34,784 nt of DNA, taken from assembly GCA_017551165.1 (NCBI GenBank), contig JAFZMO010000090.1, positions 1-34,784 on the forward strand, read 5' to 3'. A program made the translations under genes and the position numbers. Shown here piece by piece: positions 1 through 34,784 of this stretch (positions within the stretch are counted from its first letter, which is position 1; the number at the start of each line of letters is the position of its first letter). The notes beneath the pieces were generated by a model, which was not told the origin of the DNA, searched no databases, and worked only from the letters and a program-made list of their open reading frames with translations. Source of the DNA: Lachnospiraceae bacterium. GTDB taxonomy: Bacteria; Bacillota; Clostridia; Lachnospirales; Lachnospiraceae.

Positions 1-719
1 TCCACGTCCTGGCATACGACCGCGAGACGCTCGAGGCCCATACCGGTGTCGATGTTCTTATTCTCTAGCCCTTCGTAGCCGCCCTTGCCGTCGCCGTTGA
101 ACTGCGTGAACACGTTGTTCCACACTTCCATATAGCGGTCACAGTCGCAGCCTACGGTACAGCCGGGCTTGCCGCAGCCGTACTTCTCGCCGCGGTCATA
201 GTAGATCTCCGAGCAGGGGCCGCAGGGACCTGCGCCGTGCTCCCAGAAGTTGTCGGCCTTGCCGAATCGGAAAATGCGGTCCTTCGCTACGCCGATCTCC
301 TTGTTCCAGATGTCGAACGCCTCGTCGTCATCCTGGTAGATGGACGGATACAGGCGGTTCTCGTCGAGACCGAGCACCTTGGTCAGGAACTCCCAGCTCC
401 ATGCGATCGCCTCGTGCTTGAAGTAATCGCCGAACGAGAAGTTGCCGAGCATCTCAAAGAAGGTGAGATGTCTTGCGGTCTTGCCGACGTTCTCGATGTC
501 ACCCGTGCGCACGCACTTCTGGCATGTCGTCACGCGGCGGCGCGGAGGGATCTCCTGTCCCGTAAAGTAAGGCTTCAGCGGAGCCATACCGGCGTTGATC
601 AGAAGAAGGCTCTTATCGTTCTGCGGAACAAGGGAAAAACTGTTCATCTTCAGATGATCCTTGCTCTCGAAGAACTCCAGGTACATTCTCCGAAGTTCGT
701 TCACTCCGTACTTCTTCAT
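1..719 (-). CDS. alaS: Alanyl-tRNA synthetase, N-terminal part (cut by window edge)
   Basis: Class II aminoacyl-tRNA synthetase that charges tRNA-Ala in the cytoplasm. Only about 239 N-terminal codons are present; the 3' end lies outside the window. The protein begins [17 protein letters not shown] and shows AlaS catalytic-core signatures: [12 protein letters not shown] near residue 40, [12 protein letters not shown] near 60, a long [17 protein letters not shown] stretch, and [14 protein letters not shown]. The ATG at 719-717 is preceded by a strong AGGAGG, and this ribosome binding site overlaps the stop codon of the upstream xylanase gene (TAGGAGG). No T-box leader is visible directly upstream, although many Firmicute synthetase genes have one. 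Identity is very secure; full length cannot be judged. Confidence 0.97.
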
Positions 720-734
720 GGTTTTGTCTACCTC

Positions 735-1976
735 CTAAAGTTCGATCGCCTTGACGGTCGGATCCTGCATGGCTCCGTACCAGGCGCGTTTTTTTACTAA
801 TTTGCCGCCCTTGTACTTGTACAACAGCGGATACTCATCGGCTCTCCAGGACGCTGCATCGTACAGGCCCCAGATCGTGATGCAGTCGATGTCGATCGTT
901 CCGGCGGCCTTGGCCTCGCGGATCTTCTTAAAGAGAACCCGGTACTTCATCGCCTGCAGCTCAATGTTCGCATCGCTCTCGTCCTCGATACCGATGTCGA
1001 GCTCGGTGATCTGGACCTTATATCCGGCCGCGGTGAACTTCTCCGCAGTCTTCTTCACCTGGCGCTCCACCGAGTTGGAGATCGTCAGATGGCACTGCAT
1101 ACCGATGCCGTCGATATTGCCCGCGTCAAGGATCGGCTGCAGAACCGTGAGGATCTGCGATACCTTGTCGTAGCAGTTGTAATCGTTGTAGTACAGGTCA
1201 ACGCCCTCGGGCGCATACTTGCGTGCGTACTCGAACGCGTAGTTCATGAAGTCCGGTCCGACCACCTCATACCAGAGGCTCTTGACGCGCATGCCGTTCG
1301 GGTCGCCCTCGCCGGGGTTGATCGCCTCGTTGACGACGTCGTAGCAGTACACCTGGCCGGGATAGTGCTCCTCCATGTACTCCATGACCTGCTTGATGTA
1401 GCTCTCCATGCGCTTGAGCATGACCTCACGGCTCACCTTGGCGCCTTTCGCGGTGTAGTCCTCCGTGAAGAACCAGCTCGGCGTCTGCTGATACCAGAGC
1501 AGCGTGTGGAAGCGAACGGCGATCCCGTTCTCCTTCGCGATCCGCATGCTGCCCTCAATGTGCTCGATGTGGATCACGGGCTCGGTGTACGTCTCCGGCA
1601 ATCCCTTCACGCAGGCGTCGCGGTTTAGGATCGCATCCGGCTTGGTCTCATTTTCAAACGTCATGCTGTTGAAGTTGGCGGCAATGTCCGCCTGAAGGTT
1701 CGGGTTGCTCAGCATGTTGAGCGGAAGCGCCACACCGACCTTGAAATCATCGGCATATACCTGCTTGAGCGTCATGTCATCAAGCGGGTTCGGCGTCGGT
1801 GTCGGAGTTGCGGGAACCTCGGTGGGCGTCGGAGTCGCGGTCGGTTCTAAAACCGCCGGTGTCGGCGTCGGCGTTGCCGCACTGTCCGAGCTATTCTTGC
1901 CGCATGCCGCCAGCATGGACACCATAAGCGCAAGTATTGCGATCAAAGCGATCGCGGTACGGGTATTTCGTCTCAT
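735..1976 (-). CDS. GH10 endo-1,4-beta-xylanase, lipoprotein
   Basis: Predicted extracellular, membrane-anchored xylanase (413 aa) cleaving internal beta-1,4 bonds of xylan. Residues 1-25 form a lipoprotein signal ending in lipobox LAAC (Cys25). A Pro/Thr linker (TPTPTP repeats) spans about residues 35-64, followed by a GH10 barrel. The acid/base Glu217 lies in YDVVNEAIN and the nucleophile Glu325 in ITELDIG; the late WGLYDAASWR motif is also typical of GH10. The ATG at 1976 is preceded by AGAGAGGAAC. A longer reading frame runs upstream through the tRNA gene and is not credible. No carbohydrate-binding module is visible. The gene sits between a tRNA terminator and alaS, an odd place for a xylanase, and I see no clear promoter of its own. 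Confidence 0.93.
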   Translation of the reverse strand: MRRNTRTAIALIAILALMVSMLAACGKNSSDSAATPTPTPAVLEPTATPTPTEVPATPTPTPNPLDDMTLKQVYADDFKVGVALPLNMLSNPNLQADIAANFNSMTFENETKPDAILNRDACVKGLPETYTEPVIHIEHIEGSMRIAKENGIAVRFHTLLWYQQTPSWFFTEDYTAKGAKVSREVMLKRMESYIKQVMEYMEEHYPGQVYCYDVVNEAINPGEGDPNGMRVKSLWYEVVGPDFMNYAFEYARKYAPEGVDLYYNDYNCYDKVSQILTVLQPILDAGNIDGIGMQCHLTISNSVERQVKKTAEKFTAAGYKVQITELDIGIEDESDANIELQAMKYRVLFKKIREAKAAGTIDIDCITIWGLYDAASWRADEYPLLYKYKGGKLVKKRAWYGAMQDPTVKAIEL

Positions 1977-2030
1977 GGGTTGTTCCTCTCTTTCGCGTGT
2001 AAGGGACAAACAATGTGCGTAAAATGAAGA

Positions 2031-2060
2031 ACGGACCGGATCTGACAAGATCCGGTCCGT
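2031..2060 (-). terminator. Intrinsic terminator after tRNA-Glu
   Basis: A perfect 13-bp inverted repeat (ACGGACCGGATCT and its complement) with a 4-nt loop lies just past the tRNA 3' end. On the minus strand it is followed by a T-rich stretch (TTCTTCATTTTA). It should release the short tRNA transcript; any read-through would enter the xylanase gene. Confidence 0.85.
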
Positions 2061-2063
2061 GAA

Positions 2064-2135
2064 CAGCTTGTGGGGGAATCGAACCCCCGTTTTCGCCGTG
2101 AGAGGGCGACGTCTTGACCCCTTGACCAACAAGCC
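2064..2135 (-). tRNA. tRNA-Glu (anticodon CTC)
   Basis: A cloverleaf can be folded by hand. The 7-bp acceptor stem is GGCTTGT/ACAAGCT with a G-U first pair. The D stem is GTC/GAC around AAGGGGTCAA. The anticodon stem is TCGCC/GGCGA with loop CTCTCAC, giving anticodon CTC that reads GAG. The variable loop is AAAC, and the T arm is GGGGG-TTCGATT-CCCCC. The discriminator base is G, and no 3' CCA is encoded. It is flanked by its own promoter and terminator. Confidence 0.95.
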
Positions 2136-2151
2136 AAATGCTGCGTTAATG

Positions 2152-2228: not shown

Positions 2229-4274
2229 TCAGTTCTCCGTCGTTTTCAGACGGTAGATGCAGAACTCCCATTCGTCGTCGTAGCGCGAGTAGACTTTCTC
2301 GCACACACTCTCGATCAGTGCCTCGTTGAGACGCGCGTCGTTGTTGCGGATGCGATGCTGAAGCACCAGGTAATTCGCGTCGCATCGCCCGATCGCCTCC
2401 CAGAGATTCCGCTCTGTCTTTGCATGGATGAGCGAATTCATGATCTCCTCACGCTCCGCCGCATCGTATCCCGCGTCGTGCACAAAGCCGTAGTAGCCGA
2501 AATAGTTCTGAAATCCCGCCGTGTTCATCATGCTGATAAAATTGTCAGGCCCTAAGAAGATCGTGTCCCTCGTGATCTGGTTATCCTTCGCCCAGTCGAG
2601 AAGCGGCGGGTGAACCTCATAGCGATACGCCTTATCCGATTTACATTTGTCGAGAACGAGATAAAAATCGTACATGCCCGTCGCCGTCAGCGGCAGGATC
2701 ATCACCAAGGCCGCAAGAAGGCAGGCGATCCTCGTGATCTGCTTCTTCCCCGCACTCATCATGCTGCACAGAGCGATACCGCCCTGCAGTCCGAACCAGT
2801 AGATGGAGAACAGCATATACTTGTGGTTCTGCATCGGCTCCGGTGTCATCAACACGTGGAAGCCGAACACAAACGGCACGGCGGACGCGATCATCACGAT
2901 CCTTCGGACACTGTCCGTGCGGATGAACCAGATCACCAGTAGCGGGATCATCAGCCCGAGCAGCAGCCACATGTGCGTCACGATCGCCGAGAGACTTGTC
3001 TCCTCAAGCGCCCACGCCTTCACAAAGCGGATTTGGAACTGCCCCATGCTTCCGGTACACAGCTTCGTCTCGGTGAACGCGAGAGCCCCCGCGATCACCG
3101 CGGTCAGGATAAACGCAAACTGGTTCGAGGAGAACCATGCGATCACAAACAGGAACAGAAGTGCCGCGATCACGGAGTGCGCGCTGAACAAGCCGCACAT
3201 GCCGAGCACGAGCCCCGCAAACACGGCGGTCAGCCACACGGAGCGCTTGGCCGGCATCGCCTCCTTGAGGAACACCTCCCGCAGATACGCGCTGCGGCCG
3301 AGTTTCTTCGCACGGAGTTCTCTTCTCTCCTTGATGCCGATGATCAGGTACGGCAGGAACAGACTGATGACGAACATCGCAACCGCGTACCCGAAGATCA
3401 GATGCCGCTGGTTGATGAGCGCGTTCGGCTGATAGATGCCCCACCATTCGTTGACGGTCTTGCCCATGTACGTCTCATTGGTCTTGAACGCCTCGCGAAG
3501 GTTTCCCCAGTTTTCCCGAACAAACGAGACAATGCCCCACGAGGAGCGGAACATCACTAAAAGCCACACGACATGGCAGTAGTTCTTGCGCCCGCACAGA
3601 CGGAAGAAGCACTCGTACACGCCGCAGAAGAACGCGGTCATCGCGAGCACGCTGGGCACGTTGTACGCAAAATCGATCCGCAGGCCGAGGAACTCCAAGT
3701 TGCCCGCAAGGAAATCCATCATAAAGTGGTAATTGATCCCGGCATTCGTGAAGTACGGGAACTGCGCCGGCAGTTTCTCCCACACGGAAAATGACCGGAT
3801 CATATTCACGTGGAGTGCAAAATCCTCCACGATCGGCGCCGGAAGGCAGATGTCCCCGTGGAGCACGCGGAAACTCGCGATCATCAGCACCACGGACACC
3901 GCGAGCGACGCCGCAAAATACAACATCTCACTCGTGGTCGGCCGGAGCGACTTCACAAGCTCCTTCCCGTGCACGCGCCTGCGCACCGCCAGGATCACAA
4001 CCGTCGATCCGACCACCATGACCGGCATGACGATCGCGTTCGCATAGCCGAGCGGATGCGCCGTGTTTTGAAGTGCACAGCCGACGATGTACGTGAGCCA
4101 CGTGACGAGCGCCGTACCCGACAGGAAGCAAGCCGGAAACATCGCAAACAGCGGGTTGCGGGCACGCTCCCCGGCGACGGTCATGATTTTCCGCTGCATC
4201 ACGCGCGGTACGAGCGCCATCACAAGCGCAAAGCCCGTGAACATGCTGATCAACAAAAACAATACAGCTAACAT
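2229..4274 (-). CDS. Large polytopic membrane protein, possible GT-C-like fold
   Basis: Protein of 681 aa, not recognised with certainty. It has many hydrophobic helices through most of its length (starting MLAVLFLLISMFTGFALVMA) and a hydrophilic C-terminal part of roughly 150 residues. After the early helices comes a loop containing EDFALHVNMIRSF and PYFTNAGINYHFMMDF. An acidic residue plus His in the first long outer loop is typical of GT-C glycosyltransferases that use lipid-linked sugars, so a cell-envelope sugar-transfer role is possible but inferred. It starts 33 bp after polC with no terminator between, so it is probably the last gene of that operon. GGGGGAG lies only 2-3 nt before the ATG, which is tight. 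A small hairpin (2238-2254) overlaps its 3' end. Confidence 0.6.
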   Translation of the reverse strand: MLAVLFLLISMFTGFALVMALVPRVMQRKIMTVAGERARNPLFAMFPACFLSGTALVTWLTYIVGCALQNTAHPLGYANAIVMPVMVVGSTVVILAVRRRVHGKELVKSLRPTTSEMLYFAASLAVSVVLMIASFRVLHGDICLPAPIVEDFALHVNMIRSFSVWEKLPAQFPYFTNAGINYHFMMDFLAGNLEFLGLRIDFAYNVPSVLAMTAFFCGVYECFFRLCGRKNYCHVVWLLVMFRSSWGIVSFVRENWGNLREAFKTNETYMGKTVNEWWGIYQPNALINQRHLIFGYAVAMFVISLFLPYLIIGIKERRELRAKKLGRSAYLREVFLKEAMPAKRSVWLTAVFAGLVLGMCGLFSAHSVIAALLFLFVIAWFSSNQFAFILTAVIAGALAFTETKLCTGSMGQFQIRFVKAWALEETSLSAIVTHMWLLLGLMIPLLVIWFIRTDSVRRIVMIASAVPFVFGFHVLMTPEPMQNHKYMLFSIYWFGLQGGIALCSMMSAGKKQITRIACLLAALVMILPLTATGMYDFYLVLDKCKSDKAYRYEVHPPLLDWAKDNQITRDTIFLGPDNFISMMNTAGFQNYFGYYGFVHDAGYDAAEREEIMNSLIHAKTERNLWEAIGRCDANYLVLQHRIRNNDARLNEALIESVCEKVYSRYDDEWEFCIYRLKTTEN

Positions 4275-4307: not shown

Positions 4308-7300
4308 TCAACTGCCGATAGAGACGTCGCCGAAGAAATCCTCCAGGCGCATCTGGTTTGTCTCCTGCAGATCCGTGAGAAGTCCCACGCTCTGCAACAG
4401 ATCTGTCACGCTCTTGCCGACGCCGCAGCGGATGCGGAAATCCTCCCTCGAGAGGAACGGATCATCCGGATCGGAGTTCTCCTCGATCGACTGCGCCGCA
4501 ACGGCACCGAGGCCGCTGATCGACGTGAGCGACGGCATGATCTTGTCGCCGACGATGCTGAACTTAGTCGCCTTGGCACGGTAGATGTCGATCGGCGCAA
4601 AATCATATCCGCGCGCGTACATTTCCTGCACAAGACGCATATCCTTCAACTCGCCCTGCTCCTTGTCGGACAGCGCAAGCTCCCTGCGGTTGCTTGCGTT
4701 ACACCGCTTGTAGTCGCGCATGATCTTCTCAAGCTTCTCCTGGCCTCTCGCCATGATGTCGTAGTTGAAGTTGTTCGCACGGATCGTAAAATACGCCGTG
4801 TAGTACATCAAAGGCAGGTACAGCTTGAAGTATGCCACGCGGAACGCCATCATGACGTATGCGCACGCATGCGCCTTCGGGAACATATACTTGATCTGTT
4901 TGCAGGACCAGATGTACCAGTCGGGCACGTTGTGGTCCTTCATCTCCTGCTCATGCTCGGGCGTCAGGCCCTTGCCCTTGCGGACCTTCTCCATGATACC
5001 GAACGCATCCTTGTTCGGCAATCCCATCGCGATCAGATAGGTCATGATGTCGTCGCGGGTACAGATCGCCGTTGAGAGGGTACATTTTCCGTCGTGAATG
5101 AGGTCCTGCGTGTTGTTCGTCCACACGTCGGTACCGTGTGACAGTCCGGAGATGCGGATCATGTCCGAGAAGGACTGCGGCTTCGTCTCCATGAGCATCT
5201 TGATGACGAAGTTCGTGCCGAGCTCGGGAAGTCCGAGACTTCCGGTCTCGCAGCCGTCGATCTGCTCGGGTGTGATGCCGAGCGCCTCCGTGCTGTACAT
5301 AAGAGACAGCACCTTCGGATCGTCCATCGGCAGCGTCTTGACGTCGAGTCCCGAGAGGTCCTCGAGCATTCGGATCATCGTCGGATCTTCGTGTCCGAGG
5401 ATGTCCAGTTTTAGGAGGTTGTGGTCGATCTTATGGTAATCGAAGTGCGTCGTGATCGTGTCCGTCGTCATGTCGTTCGCCGGGTGCTGCACGGGCGTGA
5501 ATGTGTCGATCTCCTCGCCGTGCGGGAGAACGATGATTCCGCCGGGGTGCTGACCGGTCGAGCGACGCACGCCGACGCAGCCGCCGACAAGTCGGTCGAT
5601 CTCCGCGCTTCGTTTCGGAACGCCGTGCTCCTCATAGTACTTCTTGATGAAACCGTACGCCGTCTTGTCCGCGAGCGTACCGACAGTGCCGGCGCGGAAC
5701 GTGTGTCCCTTGCCGAAGAGTACCTCCGTGTAGGCGTGTGCCTTGCTCTGGTACTCGCTCGAGAAGTTCAGGTCGATATCGGGCTCCTTGTCGCCGTAGA
5801 ACCCGAGAAACGTCTCAAACGGAATGTTCTGACCGTCTCTCGTGAGCGGTCTTCCGCAGTTCGGGCAGTCCTTCGCAGGAAGGTCGAACCCGGACTTTAA
5901 GTTGTATGCTTTTACATCCTCGGAGTCGAAATCCGAGTAGTGACAATGCTTACAGAAATAGTGTGCCGGCAGCGGGTTCACCTCGGTGATCCCGGCCATC
6001 GTCGCCACGAAGGACGAGCCGACGCTGCCTCGTGATCCGACGAGATAGCCGTCGTCATTCGAGTGCTTCACGAGTCGCTGCGCGATGATGTACATGACCG
6101 CGAAACCGTTGTTGATGATGGAGTTGAGCTCCTTCTCCAGTCGGTCCGAAACGATCTGCGGAAGGTTCTCCCCGTACCACTCGTGCGCCGTTCCGTAGCA
6201 GATGCTGCGGAGCTCGGAGTCCGAGTTCTCGATGACGGGAGGGCATTTGTCGGGGCGGACCGGATTGATCTTCTCGATCATGTTGTTGATCTTGTTCGGG
6301 TTCTCCACGACGATCTCATACGCCTTCTTCTCCGGAAGGTACGTGAATTCGTCGAGCATCTCCTCGGTCGTGCGGTAGTAAAGAGGCGGCTGATGATCCG
6401 CGTCCTTGAAGCCCTTGCCCGCCATGATGATGCGCCGGTAGATCTCATCCTCCGGGTTCAAAAAATGTACGTCACAGGTGGCGACACACATTTTCCCATG
6501 GGCGTCCGCGAGGTCGACGATCCGCTTGTTCAGTGACTTCAGGTCGTCCCAACCGGTCACCTGCGGGATCGTCTCATCCTCGATCATATACTGGTTGTTC
6601 CCGAGCGGCTGGATCTCATAGTAGTCGTAGAAATCGCTGATCCGCTTGATCTCCTCCTCAGGCTTGTCGAACAGGATCGCACGGAACAGCTCTCCCGCCT
6701 CGCACGCGGAACCGATGATCAGACCCTCACGCATCTGCCGCAACAGACTCTTCGGGATACGCGGCTTTCCGACGGCACCGCGCTGGTAAAAATAATCAAT
6801 ATGAGACTTCGAAACCAGCCGGTACAGGTTGTTCCGGCCGACGTCGTTCTTGCAGAGCAAAATGATATGGTAGCTCGGCAGCTTGCGGATCGCATCCTTG
6901 TCGAGCTCGAGATCGTACGGCGTTCCGTCGGGCTTCGTCACACCCTCGTCGTCGACGATGTAGCCCTCCATACCGTAAATGATCTTAAACTTCTTGTATG
7001 CTTCCTTCTTCGCCTCGTCGTCGCCGAACTTCGAAGGATCGATGGCATGCGCCGCGTCGACGAAGGACTGCACGACGCCGTGGTCCGTGATCGCGATCGC
7101 AGGGTGTCCCCACTCGAATGCGCGCTTCACGATCGTCGCCGTATCCACGACGGCGTCCATATCGCTCATCTGCGTATGGCAGTGAAGCTCGACGCGCTTC
7201 ACCTCGGCGTTGTCCTTTCTTTTTATGCGGGTATCCTCGGACTTGCGGATGCCCGAGACCTTGCCGATCCCGAGCTCCTTCGTGTAGCGGTCGTCCTCGG

Positions 7301-8315
7301 TCTCGCCCGCAAGACACACAAAGCAGCCCTCCTTCAGGTTCTCAAGGACGGCACCGACCTCCGGCGTCGGGACATAGATCTTCACTGCGATGGAGTCCTC
7401 AAAATCGGTGATCGCGAACGAGACGAGCGTCTTCGTCACGCGCTTCACCTCGCCGCTCTCCTGCTCATCCCTGCGGATCAGCTCGCGGGATTCAAGCTTG
7501 AACACCTGACCCTGAACAACAACATTTTGCTCGGGATCGAGGATCGACGAGATCGGCGTGATGGACGAGTAGTCAAACGATCTTCCGTAGAAGATCGCCG
7601 GGTCGTCCGGTGCTTTTCTTCTGCGCTGGAAGCCCTGCTGGGCGCGCGGCTCCTCCGCCGCGGGCTCGCGCTTTTGCTTGACCGTGAGGTCCTTCGGCTT
7701 GCGCTCCGCGCCTGTGCCCGCATACTCTGCAGCCGTGCGGTTCCGAAGCTGCTTGGCGATATACTCGGACGCCGAGTATGTGCGCTCCGCAGGATACGTC
7801 TCCTGCAGATCGCCCGGCTCCTCATAGACCACGCTGAGGTTTTGGAAACGGTCGCTCCAGAAGCGGAAGCTGTCCGTGAGGTCCCCGACAAACTCATGCT
7901 CAAAGCTTAAAAACAGACTGTCCCCCGGGAGCGTCACCTTCACAGTGCTGCCGCTCGCCGTGAAGTCTGCGGTCTCAAGAACGGCGTTGTGCATTTTCCG
8001 AAATGTCCCGCCGTACTCCTCGCGGATCAGGTCAAGGAGGGACCGGAGCGCCTTCTGCTCGTCCTCCCCCTCCTCGATACAGCGAAAGCGCGCGCGGATC
8101 TCCACGCCGGCGTGCACATCGGCAAATGCCTGCTTTTTGACCGTATCCGAGAGCATACGAAGCACGCCGTACGGAATCATCTCGTCCGATACGGCGTGTA
8201 TGGTTATCCTGTTGTTGGTTCGATTGATCGTGATCTTACTGACCTCAAGCCCCTGCGTCTCGCGTCGAAGCTCGGGGGTCAGCTGCAATCGTTTGATTGC
8301 CTGTTCAATTTTCAT
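4308..8315 (-). CDS. polC: DNA polymerase III PolC-type alpha subunit lacking the exonuclease domain
   Basis: Main replicative polymerase of low-GC Gram-positives; 1335 aa. In order: N-terminal domain (about 1-240, with a charged linker near 200-235); OB domain (about 262-365); PHP domain beginning ELHCHTQMSDMD (378-387) and AIAITDHGVVQSF (406-418); polymerase core with GSRGSVGSS (760-768); zinc-binding Cys788/791/817/820; catalytic PDIDLNFS (845-852); and KLDILGHEDPT. Bacillus PolC carries a DnaQ-type exonuclease of about 170 residues inside the PHP region. Here YGMEGYIVDDEG (447-458) is followed by only about 20 residues before SYHIILLCKND (481-491), and no exonuclease motif is present. The ATG overlaps the end of ispG by 11 nt, with GGAGG 5 nt upstream. 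The reading frame is intact, so this is not simple decay. Confidence 0.96.
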   Translation of the reverse strand: MKIEQAIKRLQLTPELRRETQGLEVSKITINRTNNRITIHAVSDEMIPYGVLRMLSDTVKKQAFADVHAGVEIRARFRCIEEGEDEQKALRSLLDLIREEYGGTFRKMHNAVLETADFTASGSTVKVTLPGDSLFLSFEHEFVGDLTDSFRFWSDRFQNLSVVYEEPGDLQETYPAERTYSASEYIAKQLRNRTAAEYAGTGAERKPKDLTVKQKREPAAEEPRAQQGFQRRRKAPDDPAIFYGRSFDYSSITPISSILDPEQNVVVQGQVFKLESRELIRRDEQESGEVKRVTKTLVSFAITDFEDSIAVKIYVPTPEVGAVLENLKEGCFVCLAGETEDDRYTKELGIGKVSGIRKSEDTRIKRKDNAEVKRVELHCHTQMSDMDAVVDTATIVKRAFEWGHPAIAITDHGVVQSFVDAAHAIDPSKFGDDEAKKEAYKKFKIIYGMEGYIVDDEGVTKPDGTPYDLELDKDAIRKLPSYHIILLCKNDVGRNNLYRLVSKSHIDYFYQRGAVGKPRIPKSLLRQMREGLIIGSACEAGELFRAILFDKPEEEIKRISDFYDYYEIQPLGNNQYMIEDETIPQVTGWDDLKSLNKRIVDLADAHGKMCVATCDVHFLNPEDEIYRRIIMAGKGFKDADHQPPLYYRTTEEMLDEFTYLPEKKAYEIVVENPNKINNMIEKINPVRPDKCPPVIENSDSELRSICYGTAHEWYGENLPQIVSDRLEKELNSIINNGFAVMYIIAQRLVKHSNDDGYLVGSRGSVGSSFVATMAGITEVNPLPAHYFCKHCHYSDFDSEDVKAYNLKSGFDLPAKDCPNCGRPLTRDGQNIPFETFLGFYGDKEPDIDLNFSSEYQSKAHAYTEVLFGKGHTFRAGTVGTLADKTAYGFIKKYYEEHGVPKRSAEIDRLVGGCVGVRRSTGQHPGGIIVLPHGEEIDTFTPVQHPANDMTTDTITTHFDYHKIDHNLLKLDILGHEDPTMIRMLEDLSGLDVKTLPMDDPKVLSLMYSTEALGITPEQIDGCETGSLGLPELGTNFVIKMLMETKPQSFSDMIRISGLSHGTDVWTNNTQDLIHDGKCTLSTAICTRDDIMTYLIAMGLPNKDAFGIMEKVRKGKGLTPEHEQEMKDHNVPDWYIWSCKQIKYMFPKAHACAYVMMAFRVAYFKLYLPLMYYTAYFTIRANNFNYDIMARGQEKLEKIMRDYKRCNASNRRELALSDKEQGELKDMRLVQEMYARGYDFAPIDIYRAKATKFSIVGDKIMPSLTSISGLGAVAAQSIEENSDPDDPFLSREDFRIRCGVGKSVTDLLQSVGLLTDLQETNQMRLEDFFGDVSIGS

Positions 8316-9378
8316 TGCCTGCCTCCGCGCTCAGCCTGTCAAGCTCCTCCCGCAACGCATCCAAAAGCTTATCCTCCGGCACCTTCCGAAGGATCTCGCC
8401 CTTGCGGAACAACAATCCCTCGCCCTTGCCGCCGGCGATCCCGAGGTCTGCCTCGCGCGCCTCGCCGGGTCCGTTCACGACGCAGCCCATGACTGCGATC
8501 TTAATGTTCAAGCGGTCATAATGACCGATCATGTTCTCCACCTGCTGTGCAAGACCGATCAGATCGATCTGCGTGCGCCCGCACGTCGGACACGAAACCA
8601 TCTCGATCCCGCCCTTGCGGAGATCGAGCGCCCGAAGGATCTGCTTCGCCGTGCGAACCTCCTCCGCGGGATCTCCCGTGAGCGACACGCGGATCGTGTC
8701 ACCGATGCCCTCATGGAGCAAAATGCCGATGCCGACCGAGGACTTTATATTGCCCATCATCACGGTTCCGGCCTCGGTGATGCCGACATGGAGCGGGTAG
8801 TCCGTGCGGTTTGCGATCATCTCGTGCGCACGGATCGAAAGCATCACGTCCGACGACTTGATGCTGATGACGATATTATGAAAATCGGCTTCCTCGAGCA
8901 TGCGCACCTTGTCGAGCGCACTCTCCACAAGCCCCTCCGGCGTCACTCCGCCGTACTTGGCAACAAGCTCCTTCTCCAAAGAACCGCTGTTGACGCCGAC
9001 ACGGATCGGAATGCCCGCCGCCTTCGCCGCCGCAGCGACCTCACGGACCTTGTCCTCGCCGCCGATGTTGCCGGGGTTGATGCGGATCTTGTCCGCACCG
9101 GCGCGGATGGCCGCAAGTGCAAGCCGGTGATCAAAGTGAATGTCCGCGACAAGCGGGATGTGGATGCGGCTTCGGATCGCCGTGATCGCCTCCGCAGCCT
9201 CCTGCGTGGGAACGGCAACACGAATAATGTCACAGCCCAGGCCCTCGAGCTCGAGGATCTGCGCGACTGTGGCGTCTACATTTTCCGTTTTGGTATTGCA
9301 CATCGACTGGATCAGGATCGGATTGCCGCCTCCGATCACCCGGTCACCGATCCGCACTGTCTTCGTATGCACTCCCAT
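8305..9378 (-). CDS. ispG: 4-hydroxy-3-methylbut-2-en-1-yl diphosphate synthase
   Basis: Iron-sulfur enzyme of the MEP isoprenoid pathway (GcpE); converts MEcPP to HMBPP. At 357 aa it is the usual bacterial length. It begins MGVHTKTVRIGDRVIGGGNP, then IQSMCNTKTENVDAT. The C-terminal part carries the [4Fe-4S] ligand motifs SCPTCGRTQIDL and MGCVVNGPGEA. The ATG at 9378 is preceded by GGAGGTCCT. It lies 11 bp after rseP and overlaps polC by 11 nt, so it is tightly coupled in the dxr-rseP-ispG-polC run. Dxr, two genes upstream, belongs to the same pathway. Confidence 0.97.
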   Translation of the reverse strand: MGVHTKTVRIGDRVIGGGNPILIQSMCNTKTENVDATVAQILELEGLGCDIIRVAVPTQEAAEAITAIRSRIHIPLVADIHFDHRLALAAIRAGADKIRINPGNIGGEDKVREVAAAAKAAGIPIRVGVNSGSLEKELVAKYGGVTPEGLVESALDKVRMLEEADFHNIVISIKSSDVMLSIRAHEMIANRTDYPLHVGITEAGTVMMGNIKSSVGIGILLHEGIGDTIRVSLTGDPAEEVRTAKQILRALDLRKGGIEMVSCPTCGRTQIDLIGLAQQVENMIGHYDRLNIKIAVMGCVVNGPGEAREADLGIAGGKGEGLLFRKGEILRKVPEDKLLDALREELDRLSAEAGNEN

Positions 9379-21876: not shown

Positions 21877-24231
21877 TCAGATCAGTTTTTCAAGCTCTTC
21901 GTAAAACTCCGGGAACGAGCGGTTCACTGCATCCGCGTCGGTCACCGTCACCGGCTGCTCGCAGCCCCAGGCAGCGATCGCCGCCGTCATGGCGATGCGA
22001 TGATCGCCCATCGAGTCCACGATACCGCCGTTCAAGCAGCCGCGTCCCTCTATGATGTATGCGTCCGTCTCGCCCTCTTCGTCCTCGGTCGGCACGCGCT
22101 CAATGCGGATGTCGGCACCGAGCGTTGCGAGCACCATGGCGATGCTCTGCATGCGGTTGCCCTCGCGGTCCGCGAGCACCTCGAGTCCTGCGATCGTCAC
22201 CGTGACACCGTCCGTGAGCGACGCTGCAAGTGCGACGCAAGGGATCAGGTTCGGGTAGTCGGCAAGTTCAAGCCGTACCTCGGTCTCTCCCTCGTTCACC
22301 GCCCTGCGAAGCGTGTCCAGGAATTCCGTGATCACGCGCTCTGCCTGCATCGATGCCTTCGGAAGCTCGAACACCTCCACAGGCTCACCGGTGATGTACG
22401 ACAGCGTCTCAAACACTGCGCCGACCGACCAGTCGCGCTCCGGCGTGATGTTGCGCAGTCCGAACCGGTCGTAGCGCTGGTCGCCCTCGATCCGGTAACC
22501 GTCCTCGGTGATCTCCACCGAGACGCCCGCCGTGTGCAGCACGTTGATCGTCAGGTTGATCAGGTTCTTCCGGTACATCCCCTTAGGCACCGTGATCGTG
22601 CTCTCGCCGTGCAGCAGAGGCAGCGTAAACAGAAGTCCGCACACCTGCTCCGCAGCGTTTTTATCGGAAAATACGAACTCGCCGGGTTCCAGCTGTCCCT
22701 CGACGACATATTCCGACTGCTCCTTGTACACGGTGATCTTCATACCGTGCTCGGTGAGGATCCTGCAAAATCCCTCATGCGGACGCAGGAACAGTCCTGC
22801 TCCGAGCGACATGCGCACCGATTCGATATCGAGCGCGCCCATCAGAGGTAGCAAGAGTCGGAACACCGTCGCGCTCTCGCCGCACGGAAGAGGATTTTCC
22901 TCCGCGGACAACAGTTCCCGAAGGCACTTGCCCATCGCGCCGATGTCATCGCCCGGCATCTCCGAGAGATCCAGGAGCGAAAAGCCGTCCAAAAACCACG
23001 CGAGAGCCATGCGGATCACAAGCTCCTTCGCGTACGGCACGATCACCTCGCCGGGCTTCACAACGCCGGCGCAGATCGTCCTGCAGGTACCCATCGCACG
23101 CGCCATGGCGGCGATGTACTCTGCGTTTCTCATCTTGATATATCCCCATCCGATGTCGCGGACGACCGCGACCTTGCGGAATGCTTCTTCGTTGTCCTCC
23201 GCGTCGTCCTGCCGTTCCGCGCACAGATCCAGCCGGTCGCGGATAGTCTCCCACAACTCGGACGTTCCGGTCGGAAGGCCGTACTGCATGAGTCTTGTTG
23301 CGAGGTAGCGGTACCTCTTGCGGTCGCACTGTCCCTCCGAGACGGAAAACTGCGCCATGACGCCGAGTGCGGATGCGAGGGCGTACCCTCGGGAGACCTC
23401 AAATCCCGACGCCTCACGGATCGCCGCCGCGAGATCATCGCCGAGCACACGATACTCTTCTTCCTGTCTTGCTTTTGTGACGGGGGCATTGCTCTCGGCA
23501 ACGGTTCTGGTGCGGATCGCATCATTTTCCGCTGCTGCTCTGGCGCCGACACAGGCGATGACCAGCTCCTCTGAGGGGACCGGTACACTGCTGCCGGGCT
23601 CCGGGACCGTGAGATCGCGGATCTTCGGCAGACTCTTCGTCACCTCGTCAAACCCGAGCAACGAATCGCGAACGACATATGCATAGCCGCTCCTCATGTG
23701 GGAATCGGGCAGCGTGGCGAGGAACTCCGTGTCACACACCACACAGGCCGGCGTAACCGCGACTCCGGCAGTCTCTGCGGCACCTCCCACCGTGAGGCAG
23801 TACCGTCCGCTCATGCGCGGCGCGATCATGGCCGTGAGTGTCGTCGGGATCTCGGCAAACCGAAGTCCTCTCCGGTACGTTCCCGCGGTAAAACCGACGA
23901 GGTTCAGAAGTCCGCTTCCGCCCATTGCGACCAAAAGACAATCCCCCCAGTGACCGGTCTGGCGCAGGTGTCCCACGAGTCTCTCATACACCGAAAGACT
24001 CTCCGGATCATCCACCTCCGGAAACGAAAAGCGTGACACCGCGTATCCGAGTCCGCGGAGCAACTGCTCCGCACGGCTCGCATACAACGCTGCCACTGTC
24101 TCATCACATACCAAACATGCGGACCCTATTCCCGGGCACGACTTCGGAAGATCCTCCGCGAGCCGGTCGAGTGCACCGCTTCCGCAATACACTTCATAGG
24201 GTCGATCACTGTTCACCCGTATCTGTTCCAT
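21877..24231 (-). CDS. Fused AroB-like / AroA-like protein with degenerate active sites
   Basis: 784 aa. Residues 1-385 resemble 3-dehydroquinate synthase (AMGGSGLLNLVGFTAGTYRR at 102-121, FAEIPTTLTAMIAP at 125-138), and residues 386-784 resemble EPSP synthase (VPYAKELVIRM 398-408, CGESATVFRLLLP 450-462, DWSVGAVF 600-607, GDHRIAM 742-748, SFPEFYEEL 772-780). Many key positions differ. In the AroB half, the GGGVxGD, VGGKTG, AEVIK, GHTxGH and HGEA motifs read GGSGLLN, MSGRYC, AYVVR, GDDLAAA and RGYA, so all zinc ligands appear lost. In the AroA half, Lys402, Arg407, Arg458, Arg483, Glu690, His744 and Arg745 match, but the Ser after Lys402 is Glu403, the SSQ motif reads AEQ, PDL reads PNL (Asn661), and KESDR reads REGNR. 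It overlaps topA by 26 nt. A shikimate-pathway role is uncertain. Confidence 0.75.
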   Translation of the reverse strand: MEQIRVNSDRPYEVYCGSGALDRLAEDLPKSCPGIGSACLVCDETVAALYASRAEQLLRGLGYAVSRFSFPEVDDPESLSVYERLVGHLRQTGHWGDCLLVAMGGSGLLNLVGFTAGTYRRGLRFAEIPTTLTAMIAPRMSGRYCLTVGGAAETAGVAVTPACVVCDTEFLATLPDSHMRSGYAYVVRDSLLGFDEVTKSLPKIRDLTVPEPGSSVPVPSEELVIACVGARAAAENDAIRTRTVAESNAPVTKARQEEEYRVLGDDLAAAIREASGFEVSRGYALASALGVMAQFSVSEGQCDRKRYRYLATRLMQYGLPTGTSELWETIRDRLDLCAERQDDAEDNEEAFRKVAVVRDIGWGYIKMRNAEYIAAMARAMGTCRTICAGVVKPGEVIVPYAKELVIRMALAWFLDGFSLLDLSEMPGDDIGAMGKCLRELLSAEENPLPCGESATVFRLLLPLMGALDIESVRMSLGAGLFLRPHEGFCRILTEHGMKITVYKEQSEYVVEGQLEPGEFVFSDKNAAEQVCGLLFTLPLLHGESTITVPKGMYRKNLINLTINVLHTAGVSVEITEDGYRIEGDQRYDRFGLRNITPERDWSVGAVFETLSYITGEPVEVFELPKASMQAERVITEFLDTLRRAVNEGETEVRLELADYPNLIPCVALAASLTDGVTVTIAGLEVLADREGNRMQSIAMVLATLGADIRIERVPTEDEEGETDAYIIEGRGCLNGGIVDSMGDHRIAMTAAIAAWGCEQPVTVTDADAVNRSFPEFYEELEKLI

Positions 24232-26255: not shown

Positions 26256-27425
26256 TTACGACTCTGTGTCCTTCACACTGTAGCAGCCCGGTGAGATCCT
26301 CTCGATCCACCCTCCGCGCTCCAGCGAATACAATATATTCGTGAGCTCCGAGGGCGTCATTCCGGACTCCCAGACAAGCTGATCAAAATGTTTCGGACTT
26401 AAACGCAAAAAAGCATACACTATTTTTTCGTCGCTTGCAAGTGGCTTTTTCTTATTTTTCGACGAAGGCCCGGGAAGCCTTTGGATTCCGTTGTCGGGAG
26501 TCGCCATGCGCAGCTGCCCGTCCTCCGCCTCCCGATACACCGTGACTCCGTGCTGCGCCGCAAGGTCGGTGAGCACCTCCCCGGGGTTTGTCACAAGTTG
26601 TGCTCCCTCCCGGATCAGCTGGTTGCAGCCGGCGCTGTTCGCGTCGGTCACACGCCCCGGAACAACATAGATACTCTTGCCCTGCTCGAGCGCCCGGTCG
26701 ACCGTGATCAGCGTCCCGCTCTTCGCGTGCGCCTCCACGACGACCACCCCGTCGCTCAGTCCTGCGATGATCCTGTTCCGATGCGGAAAATGATGCGGCA
26801 GCCCCGGTACGCCCGGCCCGTACTCCGAACAGATGCACCCGCGGTCCATGACCTCGCGGTACAATAAAACATTGTTTCGCGGGTACACGACACCGATCCC
26901 CGAACCGAGCACCGCGACCGGAAATCCCTCGCCGTTCACACAGCCGCGGTGTGCTGCCGCATCGATCCCCATCGCAAGGCCGCTCACAACCGCGGCACCG
27001 AAATCCCCGAACGCCTGCCCGAACTGCCTCGCGACAAGCTCACCGTACGGGGAAGCCCTCCTCGTGCCGATGACGGCCACGGACAGCGGCAGATCCGAGG
27101 GAGGAAGGCTCCCCTGGACAAACAAGCCTACAGGCGCATCCGGGATCCTCCGAAGGCGGTCCGGAAACTCTTCATCCTCATGCCACAGAAACCGGATCCC
27201 GTCGCGGTCCATCTTCGCGAGAAGCTTATCACAGTATGCAGCATTTCTCGTGGAGACAAGCCGTTCCGCAGTCTCCTCCGCAAGACCGCACTGTTCCTGC
27301 AATTCTTCCTTCTCTGCCGCGTACACCCCGGAGGGCGTCACAAACGCTGTCAGAAGTTTCTTCCGCACGGCGTTGTCCGTGACCGTGCTGCACAGCCACA
27401 CTGCATGATACCTCTCAGGACACAT
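26256..27425 (-). CDS. dprA: DNA processing protein DprA
   Basis: Binds incoming single-stranded DNA during transformation and loads RecA; cytoplasmic. 389 aa from the chosen ATG. Rossmann-type core: VAVIGTRRASPYG (116-128), SGLAMGIDAAAHRG (148-161), HHFPHRNRIIAGLS (211-224) and EAHAKSGTLITV (231-242). A winged-helix domain forms the C-terminus (ending near SLERGGWIERISPGCYSV). The ATG at 27425 has GGAGGAGG 6 nt upstream and overlaps the comM end by 11 nt, so the two competence genes are translationally coupled. The longer upstream frame is a shadow within comM. Confidence 0.96.
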   Translation of the reverse strand: MCPERYHAVWLCSTVTDNAVRKKLLTAFVTPSGVYAAEKEELQEQCGLAEETAERLVSTRNAAYCDKLLAKMDRDGIRFLWHEDEEFPDRLRRIPDAPVGLFVQGSLPPSDLPLSVAVIGTRRASPYGELVARQFGQAFGDFGAAVVSGLAMGIDAAAHRGCVNGEGFPVAVLGSGIGVVYPRNNVLLYREVMDRGCICSEYGPGVPGLPHHFPHRNRIIAGLSDGVVVVEAHAKSGTLITVDRALEQGKSIYVVPGRVTDANSAGCNQLIREGAQLVTNPGEVLTDLAAQHGVTVYREAEDGQLRMATPDNGIQRLPGPSSKNKKKPLASDEKIVYAFLRLSPKHFDQLVWESGMTPSELTNILYSLERGGWIERISPGCYSVKDTES

Positions 27426-28941
27426 TGGCATCCTCCTCCATGCGGAATCCGATCGCCTCCGTGACATGTCGGTTACCGACCTTCGTGCTCCCGTCGAGGT
27501 CGGCGATCGTTCGCGCCACACGCTTCAGCCGGTAATAACCGCGCGCGGAACAGCCGGTCTCCTCAGCATAGTGCGCAAGCAGCACGCTTGCTTCGCGGTC
27601 AAGCGCAAACAAGCGGTCGGCCGCCTCCCCCGGAACCTCCGAGTTGTACCGGTACGGTGTACCCTTGTACCGCTCCCGCTGTACGCTGATCGCGCACTCC
27701 ACTCGTCTGCGGATCCCCTCGCTTGTGTCCCCGCTCGGCGCATCGCCCGCAGACAATTCCTGCACGGGGATCCCGGGCATCGTCGCACACAGGTCGATCC
27801 GGTCGAGGATTGGTCGGCTGATCCTTCCTTTATATCTCTTGATCATGTCAGGAGTACAGGTACACCGGTTGCGGTCGGGATAATATCCGCACGGGCACGG
27901 GTTCATCGCCGCAACGAGCATGAATTTGGCGGGGAACTCCACATTGCCGTTTAGGCGCGCCACATGGATACGCTTCTCCTCAAGCGGCTGCCTTAGCACC
28001 TCGATGCTCCCGCGCCGAAACTCGGGAAACTCATCGAGGAACAGCACCCCGAACGAGGCGAGCGAGACCTCCCCGGGGATCGGCATCCTTCCGCCGCCCG
28101 CGAGCGCAGGCACTGTGGCCGTGTGGTGCGGCGATCGGAACGGGCGCTTCCGCATCATCCCGCCGTCCGCCGGCAACAGCCCCGCGACGCTGTACACCTT
28201 CGTAAGCTCCAGACTCTCCTCGAACGTCAGCTTCGGCATGATCCCGGGAATCCGGCTCGCAAGCATCGTCTTGCCCGACCCGGGCGGTCCCGTCAGGAGC
28301 AGGTTGTGCATCCCGGCCACCGCGATCTCCGCAGCGCGCTTCGCCAGAAACTGCCCTCGGATCTGCGCAAAATCCCCGACCGTTTCCGTGTCCGCCCCGT
28401 TCCACTGTACGGGCTCCGCAAGCGTCCCCCCGGTGTCCGTAAAATGTCTCGCCGCCTCCGCGAGGGACGACACCCCGTAGACACGGATTCCCTCCACGAG
28501 CGCACCCTCCTCCAGATTGGCGCTCGGGATGATGATCGAGTGAAAGCCCCGTTGCTTCGCCTCGTACACGCACGAGAGAATGCCCGTGACGCCGCGAACT
28601 CTGCCGTCCAGACCGAGTTCCCCCACAAACCCGTATCCGTCCGTCAGCACCGCGGGAATGATGTCGCAGGCGCACAGGATCCCCATGGCGATCGGCAGAT
28701 CATAGCCGGTGCCGCCCTTGCGCTCGTCCGCGGGCGACAGATTGACCGTGATGCGCTTCGCCGGTATAAAAAATCCCGAGTTCTTCATCGCGACGCGAAC
28801 GCGCTCCCTCGCCTCGCGCACCTCCCCCGCAAGATACCCCACAAGATCGATCCCGGGCAAGCCTCCCGACACATCCGCCTCCACCCGGATGACCGAGGCC
28901 TCGATCCCCGAGACTGCAAAACTGTACACCGAACAGATCAT
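27415..28941 (-). CDS. comM: ComM/YifB AAA+ helicase (Mg-chelatase-like)
   Basis: AAA+ protein that in Vibrio promotes branch migration during natural transformation; long annotated as an Mg-chelatase relative. 508 aa. The N-terminal Lon-like domain begins MICSVYSFAVSGIEASVIRV and GGLPGIDLVGYLAGEVREAR. Walker A is GPPGSGKT (218-225); Walker B is LFLDEFPEF (300-308). A Cys-rich NPCPCGYYPDRNRCTC motif follows. The ATG at 28941 is preceded by GGGAGGAAGG. A longer reading frame runs back through the nrdR terminator and is rejected. Confidence 0.95.
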   Translation of the reverse strand: MICSVYSFAVSGIEASVIRVEADVSGGLPGIDLVGYLAGEVREARERVRVAMKNSGFFIPAKRITVNLSPADERKGGTGYDLPIAMGILCACDIIPAVLTDGYGFVGELGLDGRVRGVTGILSCVYEAKQRGFHSIIIPSANLEEGALVEGIRVYGVSSLAEAARHFTDTGGTLAEPVQWNGADTETVGDFAQIRGQFLAKRAAEIAVAGMHNLLLTGPPGSGKTMLASRIPGIMPKLTFEESLELTKVYSVAGLLPADGGMMRKRPFRSPHHTATVPALAGGGRMPIPGEVSLASFGVLFLDEFPEFRRGSIEVLRQPLEEKRIHVARLNGNVEFPAKFMLVAAMNPCPCGYYPDRNRCTCTPDMIKRYKGRISRPILDRIDLCATMPGIPVQELSAGDAPSGDTSEGIRRRVECAISVQRERYKGTPYRYNSEVPGEAADRLFALDREASVLLAHYAEETGCSARGYYRLKRVARTIADLDGSTKVGNRHVTEAIGFRMEEDANVS

Positions 28942-29064
28942 ACCTTCCTCCCATTTTCCTATCGCAGCGCCGAAAACCCGACACATTCCGCACGCCGCAT
29001 ACCTCTCAATCCGGTTTAAGCATACGCCATCCCAAGCGGCAAATCCATTCGCAGAGTATATGAA

Positions 29065-29098
29065 AAGACGGCCTCTCATTTTCATGAAAAGCCGTCTT
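29065..29098 (-). terminator. Intrinsic terminator after nrdR
   Basis: Inverted repeat AAGACGGC / GCCGTCTT with an 18-nt loop; the minus-strand 3' side continues TTTTCATAT. It separates nrdR from comM. No convincing comM promoter was found between 28942 and 29064. Confidence 0.65.
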
Positions 29099-29174
29099 CG
29101 AAAGTACTTTTTCATTTTTCAATTGACACTATGCCGAAAATGAACCCTCGTTTTCGTACACATTGCCAACCGCC

Positions 29175-29633
29175 TTAATTCTCATGGTCCAAAAGCGTCT
29201 TGAGCTCGTCCATGAACGTGTTGACGTCCTTAAACTCGCGGTAAACCGACGCGAAGCGAACATACGCAACCTCGTCGAGTTTCTTAAGCTTGTCCATCAC
29301 CAGCTCGCCGATGCGGTAGCTCGGGATCTCCTTCTCTTCCATAGAAAAGATCTCCGTCTCGACCTCGTCCACCAGCTTGCGGATCTGCTCCACACTGATG
29401 GGGCGCTTGTGGCAAGAAGCGTACACACCTGCCTCGATCTTCGAGCGGTCGTACGTCTGGCGCACATTGCCCTTCTTGATCACGACAAGCGGGATCGTCT
29501 CAACCTTCTCGTAGGTCGTAAAGCGCTTCTCGCACTCGTCACACTGTCTTCTGCGGCGGATGGAATTGGATTCCTCCACCGGACGTGAATCGATCACTCT
29601 CGTATTTTCCGTTCCGCAATAGGGACACTTCAT
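29175..29633 (-). CDS. nrdR: Transcriptional repressor NrdR
   Basis: Zinc-ribbon plus ATP-cone repressor of ribonucleotide reductase genes; senses ATP/dATP. 152 aa, the family length. The zinc ribbon uses Cys3, Cys6, Cys31 and Cys34 (MKCPYCGTENTRVIDSRPV and RRRRQCDECEKRFTTYE). The ATP-cone follows (VVIKKGNVRQTYDRSKIEAG). It stands alone between the DUF4867-like gene and its own terminator. No ribonucleotide reductase gene is in the window. Confidence 0.97.
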   Translation of the reverse strand: MKCPYCGTENTRVIDSRPVEESNSIRRRRQCDECEKRFTTYEKVETIPLVVIKKGNVRQTYDRSKIEAGVYASCHKRPISVEQIRKLVDEVETEIFSMEEKEIPSYRIGELVMDKLKKLDEVAYVRFASVYREFKDVNTFMDELKTLLDHEN

Positions 29634-30412: not shown

Positions 30413-30421
30413 CGGAAAATG

Positions 30422-31499: not shown

Positions 31500-31507
31500 C
31501 GGAAAAT
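31500..31507. promoter_or_regulatory. CGGAAAAT word in the kdgK leader
   Basis: TTCGGAAAATG lies just after the kdgK -10, in the transcribed leader. It reads CATTTTCCGAA on the minus strand, close to the CodY-box core (ATTTTCWGAA). A repressor bound here would block transcription. Confidence 0.35.
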
Positions 31508-31610: not shown

Positions 31611-31618
31611 ATTTTCCG
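31611..31618. promoter_or_regulatory. ATTTTCCG word upstream of the uxaC promoter
   Basis: AATTTTCCGAAAGAT (31610-31624) lies 21 bp before the uxaC -35 and matches 12 of 15 positions of the CodY consensus AATTTTCWGAAAATT by my comparison. Confidence 0.45.
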
Positions 31619-33194: not shown

Positions 33195-33207
33195 GGAAAG
33201 GACTGCC

Positions 33208-34140: not shown

Positions 34141-34152
34141 GGAGGTGGACAT

Positions 34153-34584
34153 ATGTTAAATATCGGAGGACTTCACCAGGGAGTCGTCATCGACCACATC
34201 AAGCCCGGCCAGGGCATGCAGATCTACGAGTACCTTGAGCTCGGCAAGCTCGACTGCTGCGTGGCCATCATCAAGAACGCCTCGAGCAACAAGATGGGCC
34301 GCAAGGACATCATCAAGATCGAGGGCCCGATCACGGTCAACCTCGACACGCTCGCCGTTCTCGACCCCGGCATCACGCTCAACTTCATCGAGAACGACGT
34401 CATCGTCTCGAAGAGAACCGTGTGCCTTCCCGAGGAAGTTACGAACATCCTTCGCTGCAAGAACCCTCGCTGCATCACCTCGATCGAGCAGGAGCTGCCG
34501 CACCGCTTCCGCCTCACGAACAAAGAAAAGCGCATTTACCGCTGCGTCTACTGCGAGCAGAAGTACAAGGAGACGAACGTCTGA
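34153..34584 (+). CDS. pyrI: Aspartate carbamoyltransferase, regulatory subunit
   Basis: Binds CTP/ATP and joins PyrB trimers into the allosteric complex. 143 aa, somewhat shorter than E. coli PyrI (about 153). The N-terminal nucleotide-binding domain starts MLNIGGLHQGVVIDHIKPGQ; the C-terminal zinc domain uses Cys102, Cys107, Cys131 and Cys134 (CKNPRC and CVYC). The ATG follows AAGGAGG by 6 nt. It ends the operon; two hairpins follow. Confidence 0.97.
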   Translation: MLNIGGLHQGVVIDHIKPGQGMQIYEYLELGKLDCCVAIIKNASSNKMGRKDIIKIEGPITVNLDTLAVLDPGITLNFIENDVIVSKRTVCLPEEVTNILRCKNPRCITSIEQELPHRFRLTNKEKRIYRCVYCEQKYKETNV

Positions 34585-34616
34585 CGGACATTTTCCGAAC
34601 TATCGACTACAACGAA

Positions 34617-34643
34617 AGAGGCCTGCCGAACCGGCAGACCTCT
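34617..34643 (+). terminator. First hairpin after pyrI
   Basis: AGAGGCCTGCCG / CGGCAGACCTCT, one mismatch, 3-nt loop, 33 bp past the pyrI stop. No T-run directly follows, so it is weaker evidence of termination than the next one. Confidence 0.5.
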
Positions 34644-34656
34644 CAGACTGAAGACA

Positions 34657-34689
34657 ATCGCGATTTTGGAAACGCTCCAAAATCGCGAT
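34657..34689 (+). terminator. Main terminator of pyrB-pyrI
   Basis: Perfect 14-bp stem ATCGCGATTTTGGA and its complement with a 5-nt loop, followed by GTTTTTATG. Beyond it, 34690-34784 shows no gene. Confidence 0.85.
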
Positions 34690-34784
34690 GTTTTTATGTT
34701 TTCCTTACGCTCTACTGAACGAAAAGCTCATTTTTCTTAAAAAATCCGTGTCAGGACCATCCAACATCCCCCTCCGATCCAGCA

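Follow-up and report, generated by a model that had tools for sequence, protein, structure and literature searches.

An over-represented octamer in the window and its genome

The window analysed here, a whole contig of 34,784 nucleotides from a Lachnospiraceae bacterium, carries polC, ispG, dxr, codY, dprA, nrdR, uxaC and pyrI among its genes, and dispersed within and between the genes are 20 exact copies of an octanucleotide, read on the plus strand as CGGAAAAT nine times and in the opposite orientation, ATTTTCCG, eleven times, which is considered below as a putative DNA uptake sequence (Table 1). An earlier note, made from the letters of the window, had listed 20 coordinates, all of which are exact, and its 11 to 9 division between the strands was confirmed; its chance estimate of 0.6-1 copies compares with a mean of 1.39 (maximum 5) in 100 dinucleotide shuffles of the window. 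Under a trinucleotide Markov model the octamer ranked first in the window, with 20 copies against 1.16 expected. The genome to which the window belongs (G000; 2,543,225 bases in 160 contigs) contains 649 + 673 = 1,322 copies against 6 + 5 = 11 of the reversed word, a control in the genome-wide counts whose dinucleotides are not matched to those of the word, and the genome-wide count to which the earlier note had pointed is far beyond chance.

Regional statistics were obtained from 291 kb of the 2,543 kb of G000 (the window and 20 further stretches, one of them all N, with 2.4 kb masked in L062) and from 50-130 kb of each other genome; the five-genome regional set holds 386 copies in 691 kb. 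When synonymous codons were shuffled within the called genes of G000 (251.6 kb), 10.8 copies were retained on average (standard deviation 3.3, maximum 17, 60 shuffles) against 111 observed, and the same null gave 3.5 against 36, 7.7 against 57, 9.6 against 51 and 5.4 against 32 in four relatives, so that it was surpassed in all five genomes and the codon bias that the earlier note had held against its own proposal fails as an explanation. The 9-mer core CGGAAAATG, counted in 3-kb bins of the five genomes, was enriched 4.6-fold below 46% guanine plus cytosine (GC; 2 copies), then 4.8-fold (3 copies), 13.6-fold and 18.9-fold, and 30.2-fold at 58% GC or above (53 copies). DNA below 50% GC, which served as the test of foreign DNA, amounted to just 36 kb with 5 copies in the binned set, and the enrichment there was 4.6- to 4.8-fold against 14- to 30-fold elsewhere. 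An AT-rich word that peaks in GC-rich, native-like DNA is the opposite of a composition effect, and codon use and composition do not explain the word.

The left side of the core is T-rich, and the extended form suspected in the earlier note is supported as TTCGGAAAATG, with both TTCGGAAAAT (53 copies against 1.0 expected) and TCGGAAAATG (47 against 1.5) enriched. Intergenic copies prefer T at positions -1 (0.62), -2 (0.61) and -5 (0.52) and G at position 9 (0.59), and the same preferences, weaker, are found in genic copies; the information in the flanks is slight beyond about 3 bases in genes or 5 bases between genes, so no longer repeat contains the word. Among the one-change variants listed, the highest enrichment was seen with changes at C1, G3, A4 or G9 and the lowest mostly with changes at G2 or A5-T8. 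Over-representation was graded, at 22.0, 3.0, 1.0 and 0.9 for zero, one, two and three mismatches, against 0.6, 0.7, 0.9 and 1.0 for the reversed word; at zero mismatches CGGAAAATG reached 1.5- and 2.1-fold in G006 and G024.

The 177 copies in the 291 kb of G000 comprise 111 in genes (0.44 per kb) and 64 between genes, to which 2 at gene boundaries are added (together 1.67 per kb), which makes the intergenic density about four times the genic one, at least two 'intergenic' copies (L055 4551 and 4990) sitting in open frames of a low-GC stretch (L055 1-16,000) in which the gene caller skips genes. This stretch (G000:C18) has 38-48% GC in a genome of 56% GC, and it is the codon-based calling that passes over its genes. 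The clustering after stop codons that had been noticed in the window recurs in the five genomes, where 21 of 99 copies outside called genes lie 0-9 nt past a stop (14 reading ATTTTCCG in the gene direction, 7 the reverse) and one lies 0-9 nt before a start. Genic copies in the same genomes read CGGAAAAT in the sense direction 129 times and ATTTTCCG 158 times; they occupy all codon frames, as the earlier note had stated, yet unevenly, one frame holding 78 of the 129 and 71 of the 158. Spacer densities were 2.28 per kb in divergent, 2.51 in convergent and 1.52 in tandem spacers. Twelve of the 13 pairs of copies at most 60 bp apart are inverted, the number of close pairs being near chance (within 25 bp there are 8 where about 5.4 are expected, and at 26-60 bp there are 5 where about 7.6 are expected), and neighbour spacing is slightly more even than random (coefficient of variation, CV, 0.88). 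GC skew served to assign 295 of the 386 copies, those on loci of at least 15 kb with an absolute skew above 0.03, and these divide into 152 on the C-rich strand and 143 on the G-rich one.

Table 1. Copies of the octamer CGGAAAAT (minus-strand copies read ATTTTCCG) and selected genes of the window
Feature	Position	Strand	Context
word	268..275	+	inside alanyl-tRNA synthetase gene fragment (3-719, -)
word	3785..3792	+	inside gene 2229-4244 (-), no Pfam match
word	4186..4193	-	inside gene 2229-4244 (-), no Pfam match
word	5084..5091	-	inside polC (4308-8315, -)
word	7993..8000	-	inside polC (4308-8315, -)
word	9280..9287	-	inside ispG (8305-9378, -)
word	11203..11210	+	inside dxr (10951-12168, -)
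word	11498..11505	-	inside dxr (10951-12168, -)
word	15276..15283	-	intergenic, 9 nt past stop of ABC-permease-like gene (15293-16249, -; below the families' cut-offs)
word	20977..20984	+	first half of 16-bp inverted pair downstream of codY
word	20985..20992	-	second half of inverted pair CGGAAAATATTTTCCG, 13 nt past codY stop; 20977-20992 is a perfect 16-bp palindrome
word	21701..21708	+	inside codY (21006-21785, -)
word	22665..22672	+	inside aroB-like/aroA-like fusion gene (21877-24231, -)
word	23524..23531	-	inside aroB-like/aroA-like fusion gene (21877-24231, -)
word	26784..26791	+	inside dprA (26256-27521, -)
word	29604..29611	-	inside nrdR (29175-29633, -)
word	30413..30420	+	intergenic, 1 nt past stop of 2-keto-3-deoxygluconate (KDG)-kinase-like gene (30422-31444, -; below the families' cut-offs)
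word	31500..31507	+	divergent spacer, KDG-kinase-like gene / uxaC
word	31611..31618	-	divergent spacer, KDG-kinase-like gene / uxaC
word	34590..34597	-	intergenic, 5 nt past stop of pyrI (34153-34584, +)
codY	21006..21785	-	tested as the word's reader, disfavoured
dprA	26256..27521	-	TIGR00732, E-value 4e-67, above cut-off
yifB/comM-type AAA ATPase gene	27415..29115	-	TIGR00368, E-value 3.2e-153, above cut-off

The AroB-like and AroA-like halves of the gene at 21877-24231 both score below the cut-offs of their families, and the gene may be a shikimate-pathway fusion. The gene at 2229-4244 and that at 17297-18694 are both long and have no Pfam match.

Turnover and related words among relatives

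The CodY of the window matched 13 loci, of which the six nearest, 76-91% identical, all belong to Lachnospiraceae-type metagenome assemblies, three of them from rumen or omasum; the nearest named relatives are Lachnospiraceae, outside Neisseriaceae and Pasteurellaceae, and we infer that the host is a monoderm member of the Bacillota in that family. CodY relatives were also met outside Bacillota, at L041 6684-7427 and L042 10001-10759, in records titled Synergistales and Sumerlaeota, with 39-40% identity.

Conservation at orthologous sites, which the earlier note had singled out as informative, was followed near codY, where the copies of G000 are intact in four close species in 2 of 9 (G011), 5 of 13 (G005), 3 of 8 (G009) and 4 of 9 (G014) aligned cases, in total 14 of 39, against 6-14% of the flanking 8-mers in the same four species. 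In the more distant G019 and G002 2 of 11 and 1 of 11 copies are intact, near the 12% and 8% of their flanks. Among close species the word persists more often than background, its sites move and its number stays high; such a combination of shifting sites and steady abundance is as molecular drive predicts and is unlike fixed operators.

Across 22 genomes of the genus the octamer occurs 284 to 1,839 times, and ten of them hold 1,163-1,839 copies against 8-35 of the reversed word. Within the genus the densities follow the CodY tree (25 rows, G020 absent). A clade of ten rows (support 100/100) has 307-707 copies of CGGAAAAT per Mb, a group of seven has 155-255 per Mb together with 70-202 per Mb of CGGCAAATG, and G006 and G017 have 166 and 149 per Mb of the former and 22 and 16 per Mb of the latter. 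CGGCAAATG is raised, more weakly and in mixture, in a sister clade (in G016, G008 and G004); the preference within the genus shifts, with no clean switch.

When over-represented words were counted de novo in 18 genomes, CGGAAAAT or GGAAAATG led in G000, G005, G009, G002, G010, G007 (where CGGCAAAT also led), G001 and G126, CGGCAAAT or GGCAAATG was among the top words in G004, G008 and G016 (the last also with GGAAAATG), and GGNCAATG, in which N is any base, led in G110, which belongs to another genus; no clear word of such kind was obtained in G006, G017, G024, G027, G245 and G329. Genome-wide, CGGNCAATG occurs 1,107 times in G110 (49 reversed), 572 times in G191 (24) and 95 times in G000 (47). 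The core CGGAAAATG was counted in 299 Lachnospiraceae genomes and was found 808 times in G000, 763 in G002, 401 in G110, 340 in G245 and 337 in G126; G289 has 339, but in a 6.2 Mb genome and with 93 reversed, and the remaining 293 genomes have 4-277. In 16 genomes from other families of the order the octamer numbers 30-316 against 31-274 reversed, four of them (G028, G040, G032 and G031) surpassing their reversed controls 1.8- to 3.6-fold. Common to the related words is a core of GG, two variable bases and AATG (GG..AATG), and on this conserved core stand the dialects, GGNCAATG in G110 and G191 against GGAAAATG in the G000 clade.

Two kinds of other words were also noticed. G016 (L092-L095) has a second enriched word, ACCTGTAC(GG), with 17 copies against 1.3, which is unlike the uptake-like word, and in G031 (L108-L111), G028 (L112-L114) and G329 (L146-L148) words of 9-10 bases with about 9-16 copies, around GTGTGTGAGTAG, AGAAGGGGGC and CGAGTGAGGAGCC, look like portions of longer dispersed repeats.

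Competence machinery and the possible function of the word

Of 41 relatives, 38 have ComEC and 37 have a ComEA-family match above the cut-off; for the 22 genomes of the genus the numbers are 20 and 21, G016 falling below the ComEA cut-off, and at least 17 of the 22 have a full-length PilB-type ATPase. In G000 a gene for ComEA (L134 3187-3849; SLBB and HHH domains) lies 3 kb from one for ComEC (L134 6982-9270; metallo-lactamase domain). The pilus cluster of G011 reads pilB-pilT-pilC-pilin-pilin-pilD-pilM with further pilins, gene lengths are similar in G005, G002, G006, G016 and G007, and in G000 the contig ends within pilT. ComEC is split in two frames at G016:C57:53707-54488, with internal stops, and at G015:C63:24535-25331, which may be decay or assembly error. 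At G120:C11:11631-12647 a PilT-like match lies in a frame of 878 residues, possibly a fusion.

Three roles had been offered in the earlier note, a DNA uptake word, a CodY operator and a chromosome-maintenance signal, and of these the first is best supported, the second is disfavoured and the third is disfavoured in its polar form, its non-polar form remaining. We lean slightly towards CGGAAAAT, with the core CGGAAAATG, being a DNA uptake sequence of a naturally transformable member of the Lachnospiraceae, on account of its copy number, the graded mismatches, the balance of orientations, the related words elsewhere and the competence genes. The 649 and 673 copies on the two strands and the ratio of 152:143 between the replication strands fit the absence of polarity expected of an uptake word. 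On the wider proposal, that Lachnospiraceae, which are monoderm anaerobes of gut and rumen, may have an uptake-sequence family of their own, independently arisen, with lineage dialects (CGGAAAATG, CGGCAAATG, CGGNCAATG) and a receptor unrelated to ComP, we are evenly divided.

In such a system a receptor on a pilus or on the cell surface would bind free DNA bearing the word, the bound DNA would be drawn in and would cross ComEA and ComEC single-stranded, and the incoming strand would be recombined with DprA and RecA; DprA has a role in handling incoming DNA. Preferential uptake of word-bearing fragments, followed by recombination, would spread the copies, which could accumulate by molecular drive and settle wherever the sequence tolerates them, in either orientation and most densely between genes. 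If the preference of the receptor changed by lineage, the word would shift along with it and dialects would result. One candidate for this receptor, no more than a guess, is a minor pilin encoded close to where the pilus cluster ends. Its model has a long helix followed by a beta sheet (mean predicted local distance difference test score, pLDDT, 81.4; predicted template modelling score, pTM, 0.68), presumably in the manner of FimT/GspH-type pilins, and a sequence search against solved structures returned 19 entries at E ≤10, namely 18 pilin-type proteins whose matches fall inside the first 65 positions of the profile, plus a clostripain.

Several observations weigh against an uptake function. 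ComEC is present in 16 of 17 chosen genomes, word-rich and word-poor alike, and discriminates nothing; the word-poor G138 and G092 carry PilB and PilT; and G006 and G017, of the same genus, have kept ComEC and the pilus ATPases with little of either word. PilT exceeds its cut-off in 180 of the 299 family genomes, and as the determinant of the word it was rejected, for its presence does not track the word there. The word-rich G191 (87% complete) and G245 gave no PilB/PilT-like match when T2SSE was searched in 12 chosen genomes; their T2SSE matches were of about 430 residues, which by this size we take to be CpaF-sized ATPases, plus weak ones. If the word does serve uptake, these two genera would need another filament, perhaps of the Tad type, which serves transformation in Micrococcus. 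In the candidate pilin the part past residue 45 has isoelectric points of 5.4-9.8 in 15 species, and its charge does not track word density (6.1 in the word-rich G005, 9.5 in the poorer G004). Of the ten word-rich species, three (G003, G010 and G007) also carry 101-172 copies of CGGCAAATG per Mb and the other seven carry 44-63, a mixture and not a clean dialect, which slightly lowered our confidence in uptake and slightly raised that in the nucleoid protein discussed below. Within genes no bias towards the gene ends was found: the 256 copies, sorted into ten bins, are spread unevenly without an excess in the terminal bins. A link to terminators was likewise not found in window positions 20,000-34,784, which hold 13 terminator-like sites against 10.7 (standard deviation 3.8) in shuffles, with no stem on a copy; a terminator role gained no support in this region, where the site count is not above the shuffles. 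One copy, that at 23524 within a gene, is overlapped by the T tail following the stem 23502-23519, on the strand opposite to the gene.

The alternative that survives best is an abundant protein of the nucleoid, or one that organises the chromosome, which would bind the word without polarity and whose specificity would drift by lineage. The fairly even spacing (CV 0.88), the intergenic preference, the conservation above flanks among close species, the tolerance of change at only some positions and the presence of the word independently of PilB and PilT would all suit such a protein, but congeneric species share only a minority of the positions (14 of 39), the binding specificity would need to change between lineages and no candidate protein was identified here; we regard it as unlikely. 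A signal read one way along the chromosome, for recombination as Chi or for translocation as KOPS, is improbable. A non-palindromic 8-mer in about 1,300 copies is in the size and number range of Chi; however, Chi and KOPS are polar with replication, and the strand-skew comparison proposed in the earlier note showed no polarity (152:143), as did the gene direction (129 CGGAAAAT against 158 ATTTTCCG). It is very improbable that the word stems from a bias in codon pairs, composition or mutation, or from a family of dispersed repeats: each orientation does favour one frame in genes, but the codon shuffles (10.8 against 111), the intergenic density above that of coding DNA and the higher enrichment in GC-rich DNA all contradict it. 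The least credible is an operator of CodY or another regulator, in spite of codY lying within the window and of GAAAAT resembling half of the CodY box, a 15-bp palindrome AATTTTCNGAAAATT in promoter regions that needs A at -5, since the word has no palindrome, its intergenic sites have A at 0.11 and T at 0.52 at -5, divergent spacers are no richer than convergent ones (2.28 and 2.51 per kb; tandem 1.52) and give no promoter bias, and the recognition helix TRS(I/V)IVNAL is identical in 14 of 14 sequences from word-rich, word-poor and shifted species (G110 not among them). The tests described thus disfavour the CodY operator, the Chi- or KOPS-like signal, codon bias, composition and a longer repeat alike.

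Implications and comparison with known systems

If the word does function in uptake, sequence-specific DNA uptake would be seen for the first time in a monoderm and outside two Gram-negative families; it would be a third, independent case, in Bacillota, from which it would follow that such words evolve repeatedly. Some common gut anaerobes would then swap DNA mainly with their own kind, adding the word to DNA would provide a handle for the transformation of bacteria that are hard to manipulate, and drive against function would become testable in a new lineage with dialects. A literature search, made mostly without subscription papers, recognised no report of an uptake word in Gram-positive bacteria or of competence in Lachnospiraceae; among the papers it listed, PMC3388099, which deals with meningococcal uptake, mentions Lachnospiraceae once.

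HIP1 of cyanobacteria is a highly iterated palindromic 8-mer of genes and spacers; both it and the present word are 8-mers repeated across genes and spacers, but HIP1 is palindromic and this word is not. DNA uptake sequences (DUS) and uptake signal sequences (USS) are typically words of 9-12 nt in about 1,000 copies or more; here the core has 8-9 nt and 1,322 copies. Neisseriaceae and Pasteurellaceae are, according to PMC12616744, the only families known for such uptake. As with the Com pilus of monoderms such as Streptococcus and Bacillus, the DNA would enter by way of ComEA, ComEC and a type IV filament; uptake in monoderms is, however, described without sequence specificity in PMC12153270, and the cluster found here is of the pilB-pilT type.

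The USS of Pasteurellaceae resembles the present word in its copy number and in the graded over-representation of near-matches, the latter as given in PMC1939737; it differs in an intragenic bias to gene ends, reported in PMC2346458 and absent here, and the extension seen here is the T-rich left side alone. Neisseriaceae are separated from our host by its being a monoderm of the Bacillota; no ComP homologue turned up here, where no search was aimed at ComP, and the link of DUS to terminators (PMC1852404) was not seen in the region scanned. The DUS of Neisseriaceae is nevertheless like the word described here in being short, in exceeding 1,000 copies, in having inverted pairs among its copies (PMC1852404) and, as PMC3630211 describes, in forming dialects that share a constant core.

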